Origin: Rhizophagus irregularis
Taxonomy: Eukaryota; Glomeromycota; Glomeromycetes; Glomerales; Glomeraceae
Assembly: GCF_026210795.1 (NCBI RefSeq)
Contig: NC_089458.1
Span: 1,938,001 to 2,002,000 of the forward strand
Direction of reading: 5' to 3'
Length of the DNA stretch: 64,000 nucleotides
Shown here: positions 8,806 to 61,096 of the stretch, in pieces
How the letters are laid out: every line of letters begins with the position of its first letter
How positions within the stretch are numbered: the stretch's first letter is position 1
Notes under the pieces: generated by a model
Seen by the model: only the letters and a program-made list of their open reading frames with translations
Told to the model about the DNA's origin: nothing
The model's database searches: none
Translations under genes and position numbers: made by a program

Positions 8806-9102
8806 AGGACCCCGGATATCTAATATAAAGGTCATAATGGACTTTTGGCCAAAAACACCCCTTTTTGCTGAAACTCAAAAAATCGTTTTTTGTAAATATC
8901 TCAGCATCCAGTAATTCAATTTTAATGAACTTTTTTTTATTTTGTAGCCCTCATTTAGCTCTACAATTTAAAAAAACGTTCATCAAAATTGGACTACTGG
9001 ATGCCAAGATATTTACAAAAAACGATTTTTTGAGCCCCTGAAAAATGAGCCAATCTGCCGAAAGTGTGACTTATGACCTGTTTTGGAGATATCCGGAGTC
9101 CT
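8806..9102. mobile_element. AGGACC-family MITE, 297 bp, 8-bp duplication
   Basis: Termini are AGGACCCCGGATATCT (8806-8821) and the inverted AGGACTCCGGATATCT (9087-9102), 15 of 16 matching. The flanks are a perfect 8-bp duplication GGCTAAGC (8798-8805 and 9103-9110). Inside is a long inverted repeat: arms of about 65 bp at roughly 8871-8935 and 8975-9042 around a 40-bp loop. It has no coding capacity. The ends match those of the elements at 25404-40662, 42573-45657 and 59484-61071. Confidence 0.9.
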
Positions 9103-25200: not shown

Positions 25201-25924
25201 TTCTTTAGTAACGTCAAATTTTAATCCATAACACTTAAAAATATATAAATAGTAAATTTACTTAGAAATATAATAGTTACAAAACTATATTAAAATTATT
25301 ATATTTTTTAAATATTTTAAATATTTTTATTTAAAAAAAATTTATATGAAAAAATTATTTAAGAAATAATTGATTTACTATAATAATTTCTGATATGTAT
25401 TAGAGGACCCCGGATATCACATATATAACTCATAACTGATCTGCATAAATTTAAGTACTTTTTGCTCCTGCTAAAATAGACCTAATTTGCTAAAAATCAA
25501 ATTATCACATTTCAAATCTATACTAATTTGCTAAAACTCAAAATATGAGTTAATAATCTTTTTTTTATTATCAATAAAAAAATAAATGATTAATATAAAT
25601 TAAACTGCCAATTTTTATAATTAAAATATATAGATTATAGATAAAATAATAATAAATAATTATTAAAAAATAAAATGTTGCGAAACTAAACAGACGGTTT
25701 TTGGCCCGCATTATGCTTAATTTTGGCCAGAATTATACTTAATTTTGGCCAAAATATGACCTGAACCCTGAAACTAATATTTTTAAAAATATTATTTATA
25801 AAGTTAAAAACAAAAAATAAGTTAAATTTAAAAAAAAGTACCAATTTGCTCAAATATAAAATATGACTTTGTAAAATCAATACAATTTGCTAAAACTCAT
25901 AATTACTATGACTACTTTACTGAA

Positions 25925-26890
25925 ACTTGGAGTTTACAATCGATATTGATTAGATATTGCAATGATATCATTACGATATCATTACGATATTTTGATAAAA
26001 AATAGATTCGACGTCGTTAAGTTAGTCGTAACTATATTTATTCGACATTGATTAGTTCGATATCTCTGCGATATCGCAGCGATCATTATGCGATGTAAAT
26101 ATTATCACGTAATCACATCGTAGTGATGTCGTATTAACATTGAATTAATATTACAAAAATATTTGACATTTATTTGATATCGTAACCATGTCGTATTAAC
26201 ATTGAATTAATATTACAAAATATTTGACATTTTATTTGATATCGTAACCACATCGTAGTGATATCATATTAACATCGAATTAATATTGCAAAAATATTTT
26301 ACATCTATTTGATATCGTAACCACATCGTAGTGATGTCGTATTAACATTGAATTAATATTACAAAATATTTGACATTTTATTTGATATCGTAATCACATC
26401 GTATTGATATCATATTAACATCGAATTAATATTCAAAAAATATTTTATCTATTTGATATCGTAACCACATCGTAGTGATGTCGTATTAATATTGAATTAA
26501 TATTACAAAATATTTGACATTTTATTTGATATCGTAACCACATCGTAGTGATATCATATTAACATCGAATTAATATTGCAAAATATTTGACATTTTATTT
26601 GATATCGTAACCACATCGTAGCCATATCGTAGTGATATCATATTAACATCGAATTAATATTGCAAAAATATTAAAAATATTTTACATCTATTTGATATCG
26701 TAGCCACATCGTAGTGATGTCGTATTAACATTGAATTAATATTACAATTTTATTTGATATCGTAACTACATCATAATAATATCATATTAATATCGAATTA
26801 ATATTACAAAAAATGTTTTACATTTATTTAATATCGTAACTACATCGTAATGATATTATATTAACACCGAATTAACATCACAAAAATATT
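25925..26890. repeat. Left subterminal satellite, about 73-bp units
   Basis: About a dozen diverged units carry GATATCGTAACCACATCGTA, then GTGATATCATATTAACAT, then CGAATTAATATTGCAAAA. GATATC and near-palindromes of it recur every 30-40 bp. Units vary in length through small deletions. The position just inside the left end of the giant element suggests transposase-binding or replication-related repeats, which is an inference. Confidence 0.8.
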
Positions 26891-28200
26891 TTTATTGTAA
26901 TATATGTTTATTATTTATTATACATTAATAATAATAATTTTTTATTAGTGGATTATTATGGGTGAGTGGAGTACGTTTCTTTTCTTCCTTTTTTTTATTC
27001 TTTTCTTCTCTTTTTTATTCTTTTCTTCTCGTATGTGAGTGGATGGATACGTCATTTTCAATTTTAAAATATATATATATATATATATAAAAAATAAAAA
27101 AAACAATCATGATTAATAAAATGTACTCTTTGTAAAATATATTTAAAATTTAATACATAACCTTGGGATAATAGTTAGAGCAGGTAATTCCGGGATTTTG
27201 TAAAGAATAATAAAAATGATAATATTTTTAAGTTAGTTCTTTCTTTAAATTTTTTTGAAAGTGTTTTGTTTCTTAAAATCATAATATTGTAAAAAAATGC
27301 TGGTTGCTACGACTGACGGACAACGACAAATTGTCAGGCTACCCCCGGACAAAGTAATTGGAAGGCGGAAAATGCCATAAATATCCAGCCCTATTTTACA
27401 ACATTTTCTTCCAGGCTAAAGCAAATATTACAAAAGAAATTGCAAATATATTTAACAAGCAATAGATACATGGCCGTTGAAAAATATATTCACACTTCAT
27501 ATTGTAATACCACAGTCTAACAAAGAAATTGCAAATATATTTAACAAGCAATGAGATACATGGCCGTTGAAAAATATATTCACATTTATACCACAGTCTA
27601 ACAAAAAATACTCAAACCACAACATATTGTAAAAAAAATATGAAAAATACGCGTATATCCTATTTTCATACCTTGCTTAACAGCTCCACTATTTATTTAA
27701 AAAACGGCTTTTTTCTCTTTTAGATGCGTAGGTAGGGATACATTTTTCCTTTCTTTTATTCTTTTCTTTCGTATGTGAGTGGCGGGTACATTTTCTTTTC
27801 TTTATTCTTGCTTTTATTCTTGCTTTTCGTATGTGGGTGTCTTACTATGTTGAATATATAAACTAAAGTGTCCCCAAAGTATTGTTAATATTGTAAAAAG
27901 ATAATTAAAGTATACTTTAAAAAGAAAAAAGAAGAGACGAACTAAAATACCGTAAAGTATTAATATAAAAGACAAGAGAAAAGCGTATTTTTGAAAATAA
28001 ACAAAAAAAATCTCATTAATAAACGCGAATTTTAGCTATTTTTAGATATCACATGCATGATATCACATGCATGTAATTAAAGTGATTTTAATTGGTTAAT
28101 TTTAATTTATTATTACATCATGCATATGATTTTATTGGTTAAAATTTTATACGATACAAATTAAAATAATTATTTTATTATATTTATATAATTAATATAA
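26891..28200. repeat. Direct 85-bp repeat and T-rich tracts, no gene
   Basis: Two copies of an 83-88 bp unit (27434-27521 and 27522-27604) share GAAATTGCAAATATATTTAA, ACATGGCCGTTGAAAAATAT and the CCACAGTCTAAC end. Around 26955-27060 and 27735-27850 the T/C-rich tracts with TCGTATGTGAGTGG repeat each other. No coding frame is present; this is the 3' flank of the large transposase-like gene. Confidence 0.6.
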
Positions 28201-29124
28201 TTATATGGCTGTAAAATAAAAATTATTTTTTATCCAAATTCTATTTGTAGTATCACGATTTGGTAGTTGGCACCTTTCTGAATTACAATTATGAATAAAA
28301 TGTACTTTTTGAACATTATCTATTACAGTAATTGGAAAAATACGTCTCCATTTATCTCCTGTTGCTTGGAGACGGTAAAGTGGACATTTTAATACTGAAT
28401 GTTCAACCATAGTATCTTCAAACCAATCTACAACAATAAATGCATAATATTTGTTATTGTTACCCTTATGTTGAAAGATACCTTTGATTATTGCATAAGA
28501 TTCTTCATGATCTTCTTCATAAATTGTGATAAAATCATCGAGATGTAGGTGAACTTTTGAAAGGATACCATTTTCTTCTTCAATCATATATGATGCAAAT
28601 TTGTACCAACTAATTGAAGAGTTTATAAGTGCCGCCTCAAACTTCATATCCACATAAGATAAAAACAATTCAGTTTTAAAATTATGTAAAGTTAAAAGAA
28701 GTTTATCACGTTCCTGCTTTGGCATTCTTTTTTTTAATGAAATATTGGAAATAAAGTTTACTGGAGATATAACTAAATTAAAAGATTAGTAAATATAAAT
28801 ATCAAACATGTACTATTATATGCAATAAAATACTTACTTTTTGTATCATCATCATCGTCTTGAACTTGTTCAGTTGCTTCAGTTGAATATTTATCTTCTG
28901 TAACATACCAATTTAAAAATAATTGTCCAAAATTTGAATTTGTAAATCCAGTACAAGATCTATTAAATCTTGGATCAATACCACCATCTGCTAAATGTCG
29001 AATTGCAAATAAAGTATTGTAACGCTTTAATAAATCTAAATCTATGTTTTTGCAATTAGTTTTTGGTACCATCCCCTTAAAAATACGATGGACCATTTCT
29101 TTTATACCAACTTGGGTATTAATA

Positions 29125-31015
29125 CCGTATTTTATCGAAAATAAGCACCCCATTTTTGCAAGGATTCTGGACGAAAAATTTGGGGGGTGTTTATTTTCAA
29201 GACTTTTTTTTAAAATACGATTATCTATTAATCAAGGGGTTTTATCACTCTGGAAATTTTTTTTACTAATTCGGGAATTTCACCATGTGAATTAGGGGTA
29301 TTATTTCGCGTTCGTGACTTTATAACTTTCGCGTAACCTCGTAACTTTCACGAAACTTTTATACGACCTTCATAACTTTCATACAACTTTTATAACTTTC
29401 ACAATTTCATACAATTTCAAACCTGTTTTAATACTATGCCACAAGTTTCAAAACGCCAACGTAGTTCGTATTCTATTGAGCAAAAAAAAATTGTCGTTGC
29501 TTATGCTAAGGAACGTGGCAGAAATGAAGCTTCTAGGCACTTTGAACTTGATGCTAGTATGGTTGGAAGGTGGGTCAAAGCAAGTTTAAACTGGAAAGAT
29601 GAAACAAAAGCAACAAACATGAGTGTAGGTTCTGGCCGAAAAGCATTTTATCCTGAAGCAGAAGTGGAGTTATACAAATGGGTTATGGAACAAAGAAAAA
29701 TGGCATTAGCTATAACCACAGTGAATTTACGAATTTCAATGTTTGAAATTTTAGACCGGCCAGAAATGATCTCTCTCTATGGTAATTCAATAGAAACATT
29801 TAAGGCAACATCTAGTTGGTTATCTGCATTTATGAAAAGGTATAAATTGGCTTTACGGCGGCGTACAAAAGTGTCACAAAAACTACCTGAACAAACAGAA
29901 GAATTATTGGAAAAATTTCGCAGATTTGTCATTCGAATTAGGGTCAGAAAATCTTTTGAATTGTGTAATATTTTTAATATGGACGAAACGCCTGTCTGGT
30001 TTGACATGGCTGGAAATTTTACCATTCATACGAAAGGTGATAAGACAATTCATATTCGTGGAACAGGAAATGAAAAAAACAGATTTACAGTAGTTTTAAC
30101 ATGTGCCGCAGGTAAGATTTACATTAAATTTATGGTTTTTATTAGTTTTTAAATAAAATAACAATTTTTTTTATTTATAATAGATGGAACTAAATTTCCG
30201 GCAATTTGTATTTTCAAAGGAAAACAAATGCCACGCGGAGAACAAGCACCTTCTGGTGTGATTGTTTGGTTCCAAGAGAGTGGATGGATGAATACAGACT
30301 TAATGAAACGGTATGTTGATTATCTCAAACGTTCAAGAATAATGACAAACGGTCAATCCAGCTCTCCTGCATTGATGGTGTATGATTCTTTTAGAGGACA
30401 TTTAGAAGAATCTGTTAAAAACGCATTTCATGATACTAATGTTGATTTGGCAGTAATTCCGGGTGGTTTGACTAGCATTTGTCAACCACTTGATGTTGCA
30501 ATCAACAAGCCATTTAAAGACAACCTCCGTAAAGAATGGCACCACTGGATGTCTAATGGTGGTGCTGGGTATACTACTTCAGGAAACCTTCGACGTGCTA
30601 AAATAAGTGATGTTTGTAAATGGGTTAAGCGTGCATGGGAGAATATTTCGGATGATATTATTATCCGTTCTTTTAAAAAATGTGGTATATCTAATGATTT
30701 AGATGGATCGGAAGATGATCTTGTTTATGAAGAAATTGATGAACTTCTTAAAGAACTTCAAGATGAAAATGAGGAAATGGATGAAATTGATTTTATCGAT
30801 ACAAATTAATAATATTTGTTTAAATTTTATTTTTTTTCTAAGTCAATAAAATCAATATAGTTAAAAATTATTTTTTTTTCTATTGTCAATAAAATTAATA
30901 AAATACCGGGGGATGCTGATTTTTGAAGGTGCTTATTTTTGATTTTTGCATGAAATCGCACAAAATAAGGGGAGGTGCTTATTTTTGATAGGTGCTTATT
31001 TTCGATAAAATACGG
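29125..31015 (+). mobile_element. Intact pogo-like (Tc1/mariner) element, 1.89 kb
   Basis: Perfect 25-bp inverted repeats begin CCGTATTTTATCGAAAATAA at 29125 and are mirrored at 30991-31015. TA duplications flank them (29123-29124 and 31016-31017). Shorter GGTGCTTATTTTTGA copies lie just inside the right end. It encodes one intact spliced transposase. Perfect ends and an undamaged gene suggest recent arrival. It sits in a coding exon of the large minus-strand gene. Confidence 0.95.
29436..30809 (+). CDS. Pogo/jerky-like transposase, 2 exons, 433 residues
   Basis: Exon 1 is 29436-30111 and exon 2 is 30184-30809; the 72-bp intron is GT-AG, and the joined frame is 1302 nt with no stop. The N-terminus YSIEQKKIVVAYAKERGRNE with DASMVGRWVK is a Brinker/Psq-type helix-turn-helix, followed by a CENP-B-like region. 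The DDE_1 core shows NMDETPVW (D183), MVYDSFRGH (D293) and ICQPLDVAINKPFK (D329), giving DD35D spacing. The C-terminus is acidic (ELQDENEEMDEID). It should bind the TIRs and cut and paste at TA in the nucleus. It is complete and plausibly active. Confidence 0.93.
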
Positions 31016-34000
31016 TAAGTGTTCCAAAGGTTTTAGCATGCATCAAAAGATGCATATTAACGTGTATGTTTGGTAAATTAACAAAATTTACAAAAACCTA
31101 TAAAAAGTAAAATATTGTTAATTATTTGAAATTATTCCACATTTCAATATCAAATTTGTAACTATACCTTTGGAAGGATTGAAAACTCTTCTTCAAGACA
31201 TTGTTGCAATTCCTCATAGCTATCTGATGTAAATTTCTTGTTAAAAACCGCTTTCATAGTTTTTGCAACATGTATCCAACAAGATATAATAATTTTTGGA
31301 ACTGAACTAACTCGAAATGCATCAATTCTTTGTTGAATCATGGCTGTTTCATTACGTTTGATACTTGATTCTTTTAAAAACTGGTTTAACAAAAATGGCA
31401 TAATCATAGCTAATCTAAGTAAATCCGACATCATAAAACTATTGTAGTGAGTAATCGGATTTGGTAAGCGAGACCATCTTTTTGGAATTTCAAAATTTTT
31501 CCAAATTTCGATAAAATTATCTTCTCCTTCTCGTGAAAATAATTCACAAGTTAATTTTAGTAGCCGCCCAATCTTTCCTGCAGTCGCATGATAAACATCC
31601 TGCGGCGTCTGTAAATGTCTTTCCCTTTTTAATTTATCTAAAATACTAGGTAATGATCGTAAACCATATTCCGTACAAAGTTGATCTCTTCTTGACATTA
31701 TAGTCTCATGAGAAATTTTTAAGATTTCTTCGTCTGTAATATGATGATAACGTAATGTTGTTACGATATCCTGATTGTGAGCACTCAATGATTCTTTAGT
31801 AGTTTTACAAGTACGACAACCCTTATTTGCATTATGTCTAAATTTATTTTTTAAACAATTTTAATAGTTGTCATAAAATTATATTATTATATTATTAACT
31901 AAGTTGAAAAAATACCTTAGTACTCCTGTCATATCGTTACCTTGAGGTAAATCTGCCGTAACAACGCCTAAACCAGCAATTATCCATGCATCTTGTCCTT
32001 GGACAGTCATCACCTTTCCTTTCTCTAATTCCTTCATTTCGAAATGAATGGTATCATAAATTGGTCAAATTTTCCTCCAAATGGGATAAACCCAATAACA
32101 AAATGGTTCTTTATTAGCTTTCTTTGATGTGCTGGCATATTTCCAAACTGTACATAAACACCACCTAGAGAATGGTATACATTTCTAAATGTACCAAAAT
32201 CATCATAATAAAGATCTAAAAACAGCTTATAGATTGGCATAGATGATGATGGTGGATTTCTAATAGAAATGTAATCAGATGGATGTAGGTATGAAAGCTT
32301 TACATTACGAACGTGCCAACGGTCATTACATTTATAAATTATTTCACTAATCCGCAATGAACCATCAGGGAATATTTTGATGTTCAAACATCATCAATAT
32401 AGTTACTTTTTCTAAAATTTGAGAAGTCATTATAATTAAAAATGGTTCGTCTTGTAACCATACTTCACCGTAATAGAACGACGTTGTCTTGGTAACCCTT
32501 TTAAATTTCCGGGTAAATCACTATATTCCAAAATTTTTTGAATTCGTAACTGATAATATCCATCATGATTTTTTAAAATTGATCTTAATCTTCCAAGTTT
32601 TTTTTGACCATTATCATCACGATAGTAAACAAAATCACCAGATCGGTACAATACTATTTATTAAAAATAAATAACTTTAATAAATATTATCAATGATAAT
32701 AAATTATAATTGTATCAAAGTGTATTAATTTATAACCTTCTGATATTAATATTTCGTGTTGTCCAAAAAGTGGGGATTCACCCCCCCCCCCCCCATAAAT
32801 TTCCATGCCAAAATTCTGATTTTTCTTCAGAATTAATGCCGGGTCCAAAATACATATGCTTCATTAGCATCGGATTATTAAGAACACGCCATATAATTTC
32901 ACTAATTGAGAGTTGATACGAAAGTTTTGATCCTCGTGAGGTTGATGGAGTTTTTTTTGGTGAAATTTTAATAGACTTTGTTATTATTGGTAGGAGAGGA
33001 AGACGTTTTCTCCATGATTGGAATCTTCGGATATTTTTTACCACATGGGTAGGTTCAAATTGAGAATTGTGAATGATATCGACAAGATCTTCATATGCTT
33101 TCGTAGAAACATTATGTTTCTGAAGCCAGCAAAATAATGCCGTAGTTGTATAATTATCAAAGTACGGTGCAAATTGACCATTGCAGAACGGTATCTTGTC
33201 TTCATCTAACGCTTCAACGATTTGATGTATTTCTTCCTCTTCGTTATTACGTTCCTCTTCATCGTTATTACGTTCCTCTTCATCGTTATTACGTTCCTCT
33301 TCATCGTAATTACGTTCCTCTTCATCGTTATTACGTTCCTCTTCCACTTGATTATTATTATCATCATTATTACCTTCATCCTCCTCCTCTTCGTCATTGT
33401 TTTCATTATTATCTTCCTCCTCTTCCTCCTCTTCATAATTGTATTCGTTATCACTTTCTTCTTCCTCTTCAGTATCAGATGAATTGACATTATCTTGCGA
33501 AAATATCATCTCATCATTGTAGTCTTGAGGATTAATTGATCCATATGCATTATCGTCATCATTAATGTCTTGAAAACTTAAATCATCTTTATGATCATAC
33601 TGAAAGTCCATGTCATCGTTATCATTATCAGGTGAACGTACAGGCGAACGAATTGCCACTCTCTCGTCAGAATCTGTTGTCTCATTAGGTTTGCTGTAAG
33701 AAAACCGATTTCGAATTCGAATTGGCTCTATTGGCTTGTTGTGACTATATCGTCTTCTCATCTTTATAACAATTTAAAATAATTCAAATTTAATTAGAAC
33801 ATAATTACCAGTGGTACCACTACCACAGTATCTGTTATAAATTCAATTAGAACTAAATTTATTAAATACTATTAGTGTGTCGGCAAAAAAAAATGCAATT
33901 AAGTAATCAATTCGGTTAAATTACTGCCGATTTGGCTACACAAAATTTAGGGTCAATTATACCGGTTAATGACAATTGGTATGACAAATAATATTATCGA

Positions 34001-34176
34001 AAATAGTCATTTATTGAATCAGAAAATAAAATAAAATATATAATAATATAAAACATAATAATAATTAAATAAAATAAAACATATAATAAAATAAAACATA
34101 TAATAATAAAATAAAATAAAACATAATAATAAAATAAAATAAAATATATTAAAATAATAAAATAAAAAATAAAAAA

Positions 34177-34803
34177 TCAATGACGTCGGTGAGAGCGCCC
34201 GCGCTCTCGGTGGTAGGGAGATCGAGAACGAGAGCGCCTGCGCTCTCGGTGGTGAGGAGATCGAGAACGAGAGCGCCTGCGCTCTCGGTGGTAGTAGGGG
34301 GATCGGGAGCGAGAGCGCCTGCGCTCTCTATACTCGTATGTCCTACGATCCATCCTATTTCTCCGGGCGGCCCGGACTAATGCTTAAAACAAAGCAAGTA
34401 TTAATATAAATGCAATGAATTAATGAAAAAATCAGTTAAATAATAAATACTTACGCTCCACTCTCCAAAACTCGTCAGAGAGTTCCTGGTGGAATCTCTC
34501 GTCATGCAAAGTCGGGGTACGAGTGGGATATCCTTCAGGATTTCTGTTTATTAATCTCTCTAAATTCTCGTACCCCGACTTTAGCGCATTCCATTTCTCT
34601 CTACATTGTTTTCTAGTTGGCCTGAATATGTGGTTGTTTCGTATATCACGAGCAATTCCACGCCATAATTGGTTTTGGTTATGTAACCTCGTTGTGGTGA
34701 ATAAGGGCTGATAGGCCCGACGACGCTGAATTAAGGTCAAAGCAGCGTCATCGGGCCATTGAATGTATACTGGAAGATTTGCGTTTAAGTTTAATGCTGC
34801 CAT
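34177..34803 (-). CDS. Myb/SANT-like protein with arginine-serine tail, 2 exons
   Basis: Exon 1 is 34803-34455 and exon 2 is 34382-34177; the joined frame is 555 nt, 184 residues. Residues 15-90 form a Myb/SANT-like trihelix DNA-binding domain: W.DDAALTLIQRRRAY, then LWRGIARDIR, then RKQCREKWNALKSGYENL. Exon 2 is GC-rich and encodes three or four RERRRSRSRSP repeats separated by YYH or HH, ending SHRRH, an RS-domain-like tail. DNA binding plus an RS tail would suit an accessory protein of the giant element or a nuclear-speckle-targeted factor; both are inferences. It lies 416 bp upstream of the large minus-strand gene's start, on the same strand. Confidence 0.8.
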
Positions 34804-34867
34804 TATTAAATATTATTAGTTTGATGGGGAAAATGTCAAGAAAAGGCTCTATATTTATAATAAATTT

Positions 34868-35275
34868 ATTATGATTTCTTTGAGTTTATTTTTACGATCT
34901 TGTCTAAATTTTTTAGTTCTAATGCAATCATCCTTAATTAATTTATTTAACATTGAATACACACATAATTTTTTTTGATTTCTTTGAGTTTATTTTTACG
35001 ATCTTGTCTAAATTTTTTAGTTCTAATGCAATCATCCTTAATTAATTTATTTAACAATGAATACACACATAATTTTTTTTTGATTTCTTTGAGTTTATTT
35101 TTACGATCTTGTCTAGTTCTAATGCAATCATCTTTAATTAATTTATTTAACATTGAATACACACATATTTTTTTTGATTTCTTTGAGTTTATTTTTACGA
35201 TCTTGCCTAAATTTTTTAGTTCTAATGCAATCATCTTTAATTAATTTATTTAACATTGAATACACTCAATTTTTT
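34868..35275. repeat. Tandem array, about 104-bp units, 4 copies
   Basis: Copies start at about 34872, 34976, 35081 and 35175. Each reads TGATTTCTTTGAGTTTATTT, then ACGATCTTGTCT, then GCAATCATC and ATTGAATACAC. The third lacks an 11-bp AATTTTTTAGT segment. It lies upstream of the Myb/SANT gene. It keeps an open frame on both strands, but this follows from the repeat and is not evidence of a gene. Confidence 0.9.
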
Positions 35276-35932
35276 GATTTATCAATTTATTTTAAAAATA
35301 TAATTATAGTAATACTGCATTAATTAATATATATAAATAAAAATAAATAAACAAATTCTATTAATAAAAAATGAGTTAAAATGTTATCTTTATACTTTAT
35401 AATTATAAAATATAATATTTTAAATCACGCATGTCCTTCCTTGATTATATTTCATATTACACTGCGATGATATATTACAATTATACTGAATTTTAAGCTA
35501 ACCTTAATTTACACCGTAACGAACTTAATTCGATCTTAATTTACTCCGTTTTAGGAATATTATCGAACAATTAAACAAATGATTAGTTGCACATGACTTG
35601 TATTATTTGAATAGTTGATACTTTATATACCGATATTTGATTACACCAATATGTATTAAAACTCTTTCCTATCAGTAATTTCACAATTTCAATCAATATA
35701 TCGGTATTTTTCAAATATCGTTGTAAGTCTACTACTGTAGATCCCATCTATTTTTTATGTAATCAATCCAGAGGCTTACACTAAATAGATATGGCTTAGT
35801 TAGATAGGATCATCACATGGTTCATTGGCTCAGTTATTTTTCCGTCAAGAGTACCAGGATCTTATAAATTTTTTTTCTTGCATGTCATCGTATCACACAT
35901 AAAAATGGAAATTCAAAACGTAATATTCCATT

Positions 35933-36085
35933 AATTTCTTCTCACTCCTTTTCTTCTACCGATCATTTTTCTTCTCACTCCTTTTCTTCTACCGATCATT
36001 TTTCTTCTCACTCCTTTTCTTCTACCGATCATTTTTCTTCTCACTCCTTTTCTTCTACCGATCATTTTTCTTCTCACCTTTCCAT
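35933..36085. repeat. Tandem array, 33-bp units, 4 copies
   Basis: The pyrimidine-rich unit CTTCTCACTCCTTTTCTTCT followed by ACCGATCATTTTT repeats four times almost exactly, with a partial fifth. It lies about 480 bp before the ATG at 36562. Confidence 0.9.
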
Positions 36086-36561
36086 TATTTTTCTTCTCAT
36101 TCCACGTATAGCCTGAAAAATATAATAAATTTGAAACCGTAAAATCGATTTGAGGTAATCTTCCATGTAAAAAAAAAATTTCACTGAATGAAATTCGATA
36201 TTGTAATAATTTATTTATATTAATTAAATTTAATTTTCGATCTTCTAGAAATCATAATTTTTAGTTTTCCCATCTCCTGATATTTTTAACTGATCCTGCA
36301 TTCTACACGATACACAATGATATTAAGATCATGTATATTTTCCAATTAAATACTACAATCATAATTACAATAGCTAAAATCTCAAAATTATATCATGATA
36401 ACCTCGCCCTTTTTTTTGTTCATTCAATATTTATCATCTACTTTTTTGAGCAAGAAAGTTGCTCTACATTTTTTATTCATTCATATTTTCTCGATAAATA
36501 TCACCTACTTTTAAACAAAAAGGTTGTTCCACTTTTTTTCGCTCATATTTTTTTTTATATT

Positions 36562-36874
36562 ATGACGACTAAACGTAAATTACCTAATAAATCGTCTGAT
36601 GATAATCAAGAAATGGAAGTTGAAGGAGGTATGTAGATATAACTCTTTTGTAAATTTATAGTAAGTTTTGCTTATATAGTTATATGTAAGAAGAATAATT
36701 AATAAATACCAAAAATATGTATAATAGGATCGAAAAGAAAACAAATTACGAAAAAAAGAAGAGATATTGACATTGAGAAAGCCAATCAGTTGATGAAAAA
36801 AAGTAAAAATAGTAATAAAGAAGCTGCCGAATCTGCTGATAAAGAAGTTATAGTAGTAAATGAAAAAAGAAGTA

Positions 36875-36918
<44 letters not shown>

Positions 36919-37828
36919 AATGATGATGATGATAATGATGATGATGATGAGAGTAAGACGGAAGATCATAAAAAACCCGAAGTATTTCAATCAAAGTCAA
37001 ATTTAGAAATAGTTGCTTGGCTCGTCGACCATCCGGAAATTTTAAGATTGGCACTAGAAATGAACAATACGGATGTTGCTATCTCATCATCCAGTAAAAT
37101 TACGGACGTAAGTATTAAATTAACATGATTTTATTATGTCTAAATCTTTTAAATAATGTATTTTTAATATTTTAGGATAAAATTCGTCTATGGGACGAAA
37201 GTGTCAAGTGTCTTTTTTTACGTGCAAGAAGTCCGCGTGGTGAAGTTTTTGATGAGTTGATAACAAAAATTTTCAAAATAAAAATACATTCGAACGAAGC
37301 TAAAAGCTACCTCGAAAAAACCCGAAAATTTTTTATCGATTTCAGAAATAAGTTTAACCAAATTATTTTAACTTCTGTAGAAGAATTTAAAGAAATAAGA
37401 AAAAACAGGTATTTATTTAATTGTTTCGTAGCTAACCAAATAGTGCTGTTTGTATTAATTATTAATTTAATTATAGAGCATCTACTGGAAGTTTATCTCA
37501 AAAGGAACTTATAGATTACGTTGATGAAGAATTTGTCCAAAAGATTTTAAGCCGACAGCTTGTAGCTGTTAATATTTCAGAATTAACAAGAAATGGAGGA
37601 TTCAATACCTTGGTTGATTTCGTAAGAGAAACCTTTAAGGTTTCGTGGAACGGAAAAAATTTGTCCGCCGTTAAAGAATTAGATAATATGACCAAAAAAT
37701 TAACGATCCCTTCTAGGAGCGGAAATAAGATCGTTGATTCTTTATCGGTAAGTTATTTTATTTATACTGTACTGATACTTCATATCCTTTAATCATAGTT
37801 ATTAATAATAATATTAAATTATACATAG
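36562..37828 (+). CDS. Unknown gene of the giant element, 4-5 exons
   Basis: Exons are 36562-36628, 36728-37107, 37176-37408 and 37477-37747, all in frame (951 nt), with a likely last exon 37799-37828 (326 residues in all). Reading through the last donor instead would stop at 37792. The N-terminus is basic (MTTKRKLP, KRKQITKKRR), then comes a (GAT)n-encoded run of aspartates (about 36873-36950), then a helical domain with NLEIVAWLVDHPEILRLA, FLRARSPRGEVFDELITKIF, and DFVRETFKVSWNGKNL. I do not recognise it. A nuclear protein is plausible from the basic and acidic tracts. It is the only plus-strand gene carried by the element itself and may be a second mobility protein or cargo. Confidence 0.65.
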
Positions 37829-37829
37829 T

Positions 37830-39883
37830 TATAAATCTTAGCAAACGCTCTAATTTTTTTATAAAATTATGCATTTTATAACGATATTACATTGAATAAA
37901 TTTAGTAAATTTTACAAGCAAATGATAATATGAAACATCATTATTCTAAACATTATACCATAATGTCGAGTGATAATAATATAAAATAAAATGGATGTAT
38001 AAAACTATAAAATGTTTGTCTAAGATATAACATTTTCAAGTTTAAAAAGTAATTGTTGTTTTGTTAAAAATGGAATGGTTATTATATGACGTTTCTTCTT
38101 TAGTATATACGGCCTAAATATCTCTATATATTTGACGTTCTTATACAGATCAAAAAGAATACATTTGCGTAACATTTGCGTAAAGTAAGAACTTTAAAGT
38201 TTAAGCCAATTCTGACTGGTAATTTACAAAATAACAAACACATTTCTTAAAAAAAATTCTGAATCAGAATACTTTTCCGGTTTCCATCTTCGATTCTGCA
38301 AAAAATTGAAAAGTTCAGGTGATAATTTAAGAAATATCCACCTATAAAGAGACTAAACAATTATCAGGTTGATCAAGTTCGTGTAATACCAAATTTAATA
38401 AATTGTCTGATTAAATGATCGCGTATATTAAATGATCGCGTATATTATAAGGCTATAAGGCCTATTAATTCCTAAAAAGTCAATTTAACCACTATTTTAT
38501 TTAACCGCTATTTATTTGTACGTTTTTTTTTTTGAAAAAAAAAACTTTCTTTCTGAAAGTAGAGTCTTCCTCCTATACCGTTTGCCGTCGTGCATAGTGT
38601 GTTATAGGAAAAGGCGGACTTGAATTATATAGGTGTAAGCTTATGTTATATAGGCGTAAAGCTTATATAATTAACGCAACGAAAATCCTTTAATCAAAGG
38701 TTAAAATAGGCATGATGGGATATTCTCATATATCATGAGCTCTGTCTGTTCGAAGTGTCGTTTTATATATAATTAAGTAGGCTTAAGTCGTAAGTAACTT
38801 TTTTATAACATTGATTATTGGAGAATTAAGTGGCAAAAATAATTTTTAGTTTGTAAGACTTTTAACTCCATACCAACTTGTGTGTGTTTGGCGTGTAATT
38901 AATTCCCTAACCCTTAGACCCACTCGTGGGTTAGGTAGGTTGCTTTGCACTTCTTGCAGCCTACCTTATAATGGGTTTTAGGTCCACGTTTGCCCATTTA
39001 AAATTTATTAAACAGGATGTCATTCGTCCAAACACATTGCAACGTTTGTTGATGAAGCTATAGTTGTCTAATAAAAGTTCGCTTTGCCAGGCAATTTATG
39101 GTGGATTCAATGGATCAAATTACAAACAACAATAATGCAGTCATATGAGAATTCCAGGTCAAAGAATAAGGGTGAATTGTCAAAGTTGAGAATATATTTG
39201 TATTTTTTTTTTAAAGCCGTCATTCTCATGAACTTTTTCATTGTATCCCTAAATTCAATGATTTTGGTAATGATGAAACTGCAGTTGTTTATAGGGGTTT
39301 CCCGCCAAACTTCTGAGGTGAATTTATGTCTGGTGTTTTCGAATATACTTATCCTTTTTGCAATAGAGTCGTAGCGAGTCTTCTTAAAGCGTACCTGTGA
39401 CACCCCATCCAACTTGGGCAGTGTCGCTGAATCTAAAGCAAGGTACCCGGTTAATCCTCAACTTTGGGTTGATGAGTTATGATTCTGGAGTATTAAGGCA
39501 TAATGTTTTGACTTACATCACCAATTTAACTCATAATTCTAATTTATTGAATTAGTTTATTATAGATTTATTGATATTTTTTTTATCTGTTATATAATAT
39601 TTAAACTAATGTATACTTTATCTGTAATTAAAATTGTTATTGTAATAAATAACCGGTAACTTAAATCTATTGAAATTAACTTTTAAATTAGATTACAAAT
39701 TATTAAAATATTATAAAACGATATTTGATTGATTTGATATTTTTATAGATAATATCATTTTGATATTATTTTGATACTGAATTAATATTAAAATAATATT
39801 ATATTGATATTGCATTTATTAAAAAAAAATCATTATTGTTATAACAATATCAAAATGATATCGTTTCGTTATTTGTCAATATC
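37830..39883. other. Non-coding part of giant element, one odd GC-richer block
   Basis: Most is AT-rich. Around 38900-39420 composition changes: CCCACTCGTGGGTTAGGTAG, CCCATCCAACTTGGGCAGTG and an uninterrupted minus frame at 39412-39107 (KKTRYDSIAKRISIFENTRH). This may be a captured fragment of a host gene or another element. I could not identify it. Confidence 0.35.
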
Positions 39884-40399
39884 GATTAGATAATTATAAA
39901 GTGATATCTTTACGATATCATATTGATATTGAATTAATGTTAGAACGATATCATATTAATATCGTATTTACTTTCTATTTTTCATTATTGTTATAACAAT
40001 ATCGAAATATCGATATGATATCGATTTGATGTTTCGTCAATATCGTTATGACGTCGATTAGATAATTATAAAGTGATATCTTTACGATATCATATTGATA
40101 TTGAATTAATGTTGGAACGATATCATATTAATATCGTATTTACTTTCTATTTTTCATTATTGTTATAACAATATCGAAATATCGATATGATATCGATTTG
40201 ATGTTTCGTCAATATCGTTATGATGTCGATTAGATAATTATAAAGTGATATCTTTACGATATCATATTGATATTGAATTAATGTTGGAACGATATCATAT
40301 TAATATCGTATTTACTTCCCATTTTTCAAAAAATTCATTGTTGTTATAACAATATCGAAATGATATCGATCTGATATTTTTTCAAACAAATATCTTTAC
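39884..40399. repeat. Right subterminal satellite, 172-bp units, 3 copies
   Basis: GATTAGATAATTATAAAGTG starts at 39884, 40056 and 40228, exactly 172 bp apart. Each unit contains several GATATC palindromes (CTTTACGATATCATATTGAT, GATATGATATCG). Less regular GATATC-rich DNA continues to about 40510 and begins near 39730. Together with the left satellite it gives both ends of the giant element the same word. Confidence 0.88.
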
Positions 40400-40670
40400 G
40401 ATATCATTTCGATATATTGAATTAATATTGAAATGATATCATTGCGATATCATAATGATATCATTTGCAAATCGATATCGCCACGATATTTATTTAACAT
40501 CATTATTATATCAATTCGGTATTGTTTAAAAATTCAAGGTTTCTGTAAAGTATTAATTAATTTTCAATCAATTTGCTCTTTCTAAAATTATAAGTTTAAC
40601 CTAATTTTGATTGAATTTGCTAAAACTCAAATGTGAATTATATATGTGATGTCTGGGGTCCTTGTATTAG

Positions 40671-59476: not shown

Positions 59477-59789
59477 GTACATTAGGACCCCGAACAATAC
59501 TAATATAACTCACAAATGATCAGCATGCGTTTACTATTAACTCTACGCAACTTTTTTTTCATAGTAATGCTACGCAAACTCAAATCTTAGTTAAAAAAAA
59601 AAATTTTTTTTTATAGCCAATTTAACATTTTTTTATATTTTAATTTTAATTACTGTTATATCGTATGCAATTAAATAATAAAATGTATTATTTTTAACAT
59701 ATTTATTTGCAGAAATTACAATTTATAGTTTTTATTATCAATAAAAATTTTCTTTTATTTATATTCGAAATTCTGTTTCTACTAGTATA

Positions 59790-60785: not shown

Positions 60786-61096
60786 AAAAAGATCGATAAA
60801 TGATAATTCGATCTAATTTGATCACCCGTCACATACAATAGATTTTTATTGAAATCGTAATTAAAAAAAATTATAAAATTCCGGTATATAATAATTATTT
60901 ATTTTTTAAAAGATAAATCTCACATATTTATAAACTCTACGCAAACGTAATATGTGAGTTGCCCAAAAATTGACCGATCTATGCAAACTCAATTTATGGG
61001 TTTAAAATACGTTCTCATATAAACTCTACGCAAATCCAAATGTGAGTTGTATCATAGATATTCGGGGTCCTGGTACATTGTGTTCCTTGTTAATTA

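Follow-up and report, generated by a model that had tools for sequence, protein, structure and literature searches.

The 64,000-bp stretch of the Rhizophagus irregularis genome analysed here (contig NC_089458.1, positions 1,938,001 to 2,002,000; the window) holds, at 25396-40670, a three-level nest of transposons. The outermost resembles miniature inverted-repeat transposable elements (MITEs). It is split by a large Plavaka/CMC-like DNA transposon, which in turn carries a pogo-like insert. We put the probability of this reading at roughly 0.97. The three insertions are each observed, as are their order and the duplications that they left. The first-pass annotation had described a single 15.26-kb transposon with AGGACCCC ends, which does not stand: those ends belong to an element of ~620 bp that was split by a later insertion.

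The outermost ends are as exact as that annotation proposed, with terminal inverted repeats (TIRs) at 25404-25432 and 40634-40662 and a perfect 8-bp duplication, TGTATTAG, on both flanks. The left copy of this target-site duplication lies at 25396-25403 and the right copy at 40663-40670 (features given without a strand are unstranded), and the match is exactly 8 bp and extends no further. AGGACCCCGGATATCACATA begins at 25404 and its inverted partner ends at 40662, with 26 of 29 bases pairing, or an 83% match when the TIRs are taken as 36-nt arms. Their alignment scores 43, and the maximum is 42 among 2000 random 60-mer pairs from the region, a pool that includes the satellites and the TIRs themselves. 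The left part of the outer element (25404-25912, plus strand) starts with the TIR AGGACCCCGGATATCACATATATAACTCA and the right part (40553-40662, plus strand) ends with the inverted TIR; both align to complete copies elsewhere, which are 619-641 bp long apart from one of 1368 bp.

The outer family is numerous in assembly G000 (146.7 Mb, 32 contigs), to which all genome-wide counts refer. A 25-base TIR pattern with up to three mismatches matches 210 times (reversed control, 0), and the positions used below come from the ~100 of these matches that were listed. Searches with the left end (117 bp) and the right end (123 bp) each scored 40 of 156 candidates, giving 40 matches apiece with the window's own among them, and all listed matches show at least 96% identity. 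Pairing convergent neighbours less than 20 kb apart among 134 TIR points from the matches listed gives 46 pairs and leaves 42 points unpaired. Thirty pairs span 617-669 bp, 15 span 702-4749 bp and only the pair in the window spans 15,259 bp; some lengths are off by a few bases where the match started inside the TIR (L008, 1548 against 1550). Among seven other loci (L002-L008), five hold complete copies (L002, L003, L004, L006 and L007, of 640, 1368, 641, 641 and 619 bp) each with a perfect 8-bp duplication that differs from the other four. At L008 the 8-bp flanks do not match, and no right end appears in the 3.1 kb of L005. The AGGACCCC-ended family consists mostly of MITE-like elements of ~640 bp.

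The interior of the window element is an insertion into a member of this family. With the flanks 25404-25914 and 40553-40662 brought together at a single TA, all five complete copies align without a gap at the junction; a 3-base gap falls about ten bases to its left. Against L002, 605 of 618 paired columns are identical (97.9%). The five complete copies read through ...GACTATTAATTAATTTTC at the place where the window has TA, 14.6 kb and TA again, with one upstream base differing in L007 (AACTATT...); the junction sequence is TATGACTATTAATTAATTTTC in four of them and TATAACTATTAATTAATTTTC in L007. Because these copies read straight through, 25915-40550 together with one TA is an insertion into an outer-family element. 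L008 also has the bare TATGACTATTAATT, and a different insert begins a few bases further on. An empty site lacking the whole interval had been anticipated; the unoccupied site seen in the relatives instead lacks 25915-40550 and one TA, with the outer element present.

The same comparison leaves almost no chance that the interval is one 15.26-kb transposon with AGGACCCC TIRs and 8-bp duplications, carrying all genes and satellites. Its TIRs do match, and its duplication is perfect at 25396-25403 and 40663-40670. However, comparison with the short complete relatives reveals that the interior was inserted at a single TA, the interior has other ends elsewhere in the genome, and the length is an outlier among the 46 outer pairs. 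Full-length copies with other 8-bp duplications were expected from an end search, yet the complete relatives measure 619-1368 bp and, among the 46 pairs, 15,259 bp occurs only in the window. None of the ten fetched copies of the interior carries AGGACCCC ends (up to four mismatches in 20, within the 20 kb fetched around each). Matching ends in the window alone do not establish one mobile unit, and the relatives show that these ends do not bound one. The trap is a general one, as perfect TIRs and a perfect duplication prove the outermost insertion only and not the joint movement of everything inside. A Polinton/Maverick was also considered for a 15-kb element starting with AG. Such elements have a 6-bp duplication and genes for a capsid, a polymerase and an integrase. 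This candidate was rejected on the 8-bp duplication and on the Pfam matches of 15 open reading frames (ORFs), which include no such domains.

Alternatively, the whole nest could have moved once, carried here by the outer family's transposase after the inner insertion and leaving TGTATTAG behind. The complete outer TIRs and the perfect 8-bp duplication would suit such a move. We consider it very improbable, as no second copy of the nest occurs among the ten inner copies and the 46 outer pairs from the matches listed, and the next longest outer pair is only 4.7 kb. Nor is an outer-family transposase found inside the three longest outer members (C6:3509520-3514268, C12:1230710-1234473 and C5:2496229-2498884), where neither a hAT match (150 of 835 candidates scored) nor a KDZ match (23 matches) falls. 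The outer element resembles MITEs with 8-bp duplications (hAT, Zisupton and others) in its length of ~640 bp, its 29-bp TIR and the 8-bp duplications of all five complete copies, and its presumed lack of coding capacity is judged from its length. It differs in that no master element was found, the listed hAT and KDZ matches all lying outside those three members.

In the nested reading, the interior is a transposon in its own right. The inner element occupies 25915-40550, with ends CTTTACTGAAACTTGG.../...CAAGGTTTCTGTAAAG placed where the homology of other copies stops. It is flanked by TA at 25913-25914, the single TA of the complete outer relatives, and by TA at 40551-40552, placed by junction alignment and right-end flanks. 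It measures 14,636 bp in the window, or ~12.74 kb without the pogo-like insert. The ends CTTTRCTGAAACTTGGAGTTT... and ...AAAAATTCAAGGTTTCTGTAAAG form an imperfect TIR whose score was reached by 3 of 2000 random pairs. Scoring 40 of 81 candidates for the stretch of its third gene gave 40 listed matches, all but one (39) outside the window; the transposase and Myb stretches also match many genome sites. In nine of the ten other copies, homology starts at the equivalent of 25915 and stops at that of 40550, allowing a few bases for BLAST overrun, and the flanks differ. Copy C22 is without the left end, and copy C6 has a second right end just past the first.

Genome-wide, 71 left ends were counted, of which 57 are exact over 30 bp, and 75 right ends, of which 53 are exact over 36 bp, with no match to the reversed controls. 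They form 51 end-to-end pairs on 49 distinct right ends, of which 34 span 12.2-14.6 kb, 4 are shorter and 13 are longer; five pairs above 20 kb may be chance pairings. The smallest pair spans 8.2 kb, and no miniature derivatives were seen among the 51.

The flanks of these ends fit a 2-bp duplication with a preference for TA. TA stands directly before 34 of the 57 exact left ends and directly after 32 of the 53 exact right ends. The duplication is argued from the agreement between the two sides, since TA state is concordant in 31 of the 35 pairs with two exact ends less than 20 kb apart (20 TA/TA and 11 neither; Fisher P = 9e-6). Copy C3, for example, has TT on both sides. Several points weigh against this reading. 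Four of the 35 pairs are discordant, two of them the C6 loci with duplicated right ends; copy C16 has AC on the left and TA on the right; 16 of the 51 pairs were dropped from the sample; and the right end C27:2012527 is counted in two of the 35 pairs. At the C6 loci, the right end is tandemly duplicated ~316 bp apart, at C6:5152737-5153088 and again at C6:5202517-5202868. The two are possibly one rearranged copy that was later moved or duplicated. For the nest as a whole, another inner copy within an outer element may yet lie among the 210 outer TIR matches, of which ~100 were listed.

The inner element carries the set of parts that had been attributed to the larger unit, namely a Plavaka-like transposase, a Myb/SANT protein, a protein with basic and acidic regions and both satellites. 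The proposal that these genes and satellites move together is upheld for an element of ~12.7 kb, but with CTTTRC...GTAAAG ends and a 2-bp duplication in place of AGGACCCC and 8 bp. The left subterminal satellite (26179-26892) is GATATC-rich with a ~73-bp unit, and the right one (39882-40328) has a 172-bp unit; both were delimited by a tandem-array scan and copy comparison. In the 12,477-bp copy C19, the first 1 kb contains 18 of the 33 GATATC motifs and the final 477 bp a further 10.

These parts could in principle be a chance composite, with satellites, Myb gene and third gene being independent repeats side by side. The arrays do vary among copies, and single copies carry further inserts. We regard this as extremely improbable, because the order is kept in nine of ten copies between the same two ends with less than 1% mismatch, and the 2-bp duplication is concordant between the ends. 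Outside the arrays, the inner copy of the window differs from the ten copies by 0.17-0.90% mismatch, gaps not counted. The inner family is real, abundant and young (less than 1% mismatch between compared copies), and the claimed 15-kb unit is not real.

The transposase gene of the inner element (28201-33773, minus strand) was traced from ORFs, relatives and an alignment, and is split in the window by the pogo-like insert. Its frame is broken also outside that insert, as comparison of the ORFs with C19 shows. In C19 the gene is intact and encodes 1120 amino acids, with four GT-AG introns of 65-83 nt. This protein compares with P0001 (1120 amino acids, Rhizophagus irregularis DAOM 197198) at a listed identity of 100% over residues 350-950, a rounded value that covers a few substitutions. 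Its N-terminal region is acidic. A BAH-like stretch matches weakly, below the cut-off, in 4 of 22 relatives (best E 0.015).

The transposase alignment, comprising 22 relatives chosen from 120 listed, shows conservation at D485 (18 of 19 non-gap rows), D573 (21/21), C592 and C595 (19/19), H820 (22/22), H824 (21/22) and E844 (21/21). The inner transposase thereby has a DDE core in which C(2)C and H(3-4)H lie between the second D and the last E. The assignment of catalytic residues follows the motif description in PMC12730594, along with CACTA Tnp2 motifs, rather than a structure. A search of solved structures with the alignment gave only six matches, none with an E value better than 1.5 and each falling in the N-terminal region.

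A Myb/SANT ORF of 126 amino acids (34432-34812, minus strand; PF13837, E 9e-11) lies upstream of the transposase on the same strand, and some database models (P0007, P0011) fuse both, so that the two may be parts of one gene. The third gene (36562-37792, plus strand), placed from ORFs and relatives with approximate exon borders, encodes ~310-320 amino acids with a basic/acidic N-terminus. Among its relatives (120 of 127 listed), all with a named organism come from Rhizophagus (irregularis, diaphanus or clarus), and some are unnamed. A Pfam scan of three relatives gave no family above the cut-off. A further relative, P0157, carries a precomputed match to PF17518 (DUF5443), to which a C-terminal exon also scores, below the cut-off.

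The inner element shares several features with Plavaka, a CACTA/CMC-related family (PF18759) whose prevalence in R. irregularis is reported in PMC11075540. Its transposase relative P0101 (50% identity) matches PF18759 (E 1.2e-5), slightly short of the curated cut-off. The order D, D, C(2)C, H(3)H, E is described for Plavaka and CMC transposases, and the 2-bp duplications fit PlavakaA and PlavakaB, for which 2 or 3 bp is given (PMC12730594). The label is weakened by the inner transposase itself matching neither PF18759 nor any other Pfam family above the cut-off and by the PF18759 match occurring in one of 22 relatives, at 25.1 bits against a cut-off of 26.3. The inner element also differs from Plavaka in carrying Myb/SANT and third genes, in showing no TET/JBP match among the 15 window ORFs scanned, and in its ends, CTTTRCTGAAAC...GGTTTCTGTAAAG (CTTTRC...GTAAAG), which are of neither the TGT..ACA type of PlavakaA nor the CATCA..TGATG type of PlavakaB as described in PMC12730594.

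Other CMC-related groups were compared by their descriptions in the same paper. As described, ESTA elements (EnSpm-like, with TA duplications) resemble the inner element in the TA duplication, which 20 of the 35 inner pairs show on both sides, and in a CMC-like core that has C(2)C and H(3-4)H. Among rust fungi, ESTA families that carry TET are reported (PMC12730594). CMCT ends are mostly CA..TG according to PMC12730594, which the inner element does not fit.

The third element, a pogo/Tc1-mariner-like transposon of 1,891 bp (29125-31015, plus strand), has perfect 25-bp TIRs CCGTATTTTATCGAAAATAAGCACC and a TA duplication at 29123-29124 and 31016-31017. Its gene, absent from the earlier description, belongs to this separately inserted element. 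It was recognised by HTH_Tnp_Tc5 and DDE_1 matches, and its coding piece matches PF03184 (DDE_1) with E 4e-24. The insert lies in exon 4 of the inner transposase gene, where it separates the H(3)H motif from the E motif. It is missing in all nine inner copies that hold the site (the site itself is missing from C22). One of them, copy C28 (L037), has two extra A at this position, which counts against the nested reading and could be either an excision footprint or an ordinary indel. Transposase with HTH and DDE_1, perfect TIRs and TA duplication all agree with Pogo/Tc1-mariner, and the element shows nothing unusual.

Taken together, the insertions show the following sequence. A MITE-like element of ~620 bp with AGGACCCC TIRs inserted first, duplicating TGTATTAG. 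A Plavaka/CMC-like transposon of ~12.7 kb then entered it at TA, duplicating TA and bringing its transposase, the Myb/SANT protein, the third protein (seen here in Rhizophagus alone) and the GATATC-rich subterminal satellites. Last, the 1.89-kb pogo-like element inserted at TA in exon 4 of the inner transposase. An older outer and a later inner element agree with the divergence of ~2% between the outer element and L002 against less than 1% mismatch for the inner one. From what is known of their families, each of the three presumably moved by cut-and-paste, driven by a DDE/D transposase of its own family. The GATATC-rich ends may be bound by the inner transposase, perhaps together with the Myb/SANT protein. 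The inner copy in the window is probably non-autonomous now, and intact sister copies could move it in trans.

These results remove the claim of a giant TIR transposon with 8-bp duplications and put a datable nest in its place. They also define the gene content, the exact ends and the length of the duplication for a large Plavaka/CMC-like family of an arbuscular mycorrhizal fungus, a species in which two thirds of transposable elements are still unclassified (PMC11075540). The family is worth describing: Plavaka is reported from R. irregularis (PMC11075540), but the ends differ from both types in PMC12730594. No paper listed in our literature searches was seen to describe these ends, although the family may well be included in the curated library of PMC11075540. 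Tentatively, and with somewhat more doubt than belief, we propose that it is a distinct, recently active CMC/Plavaka-type lineage in Rhizophagus. Such a lineage would target TA, have CTTT...AAAG ends, always be long, be bordered by GATATC-rich satellites and move together with the Myb/SANT protein and with a third, genus-specific protein that may be needed for transposition.

Further traces of the two families were seen nearby and elsewhere. A degenerate inner-type right end (C14:2714836-2714871, three mismatches) lies 20 bp beyond the end of an outer-family element at C14:2713340-2714816, possibly another contact between both families. In the window, an isolated inverted AGGACCCC-like TIR lies at 61052-61071 (five mismatches in 20), with only a weak candidate partner within 5 kb upstream, at 59484 (four mismatches in 16). 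A 297-bp element at 8806-9102 has a related TIR (AGGACCCCGGATATCT...), long imperfect inverted halves and perfect 8-bp GGCTAAGC flanks. L008 holds an element of equal length with the same type of ends at 2600-2896. The insert that interrupts the outer-family element of L008 (2023-2937), with ends TGCCAATCCGCC.../...GGCGAATCGGCA, holds a 297-bp AGGACCCC-ended element and forms a different nest at nearly the same point of the outer element.

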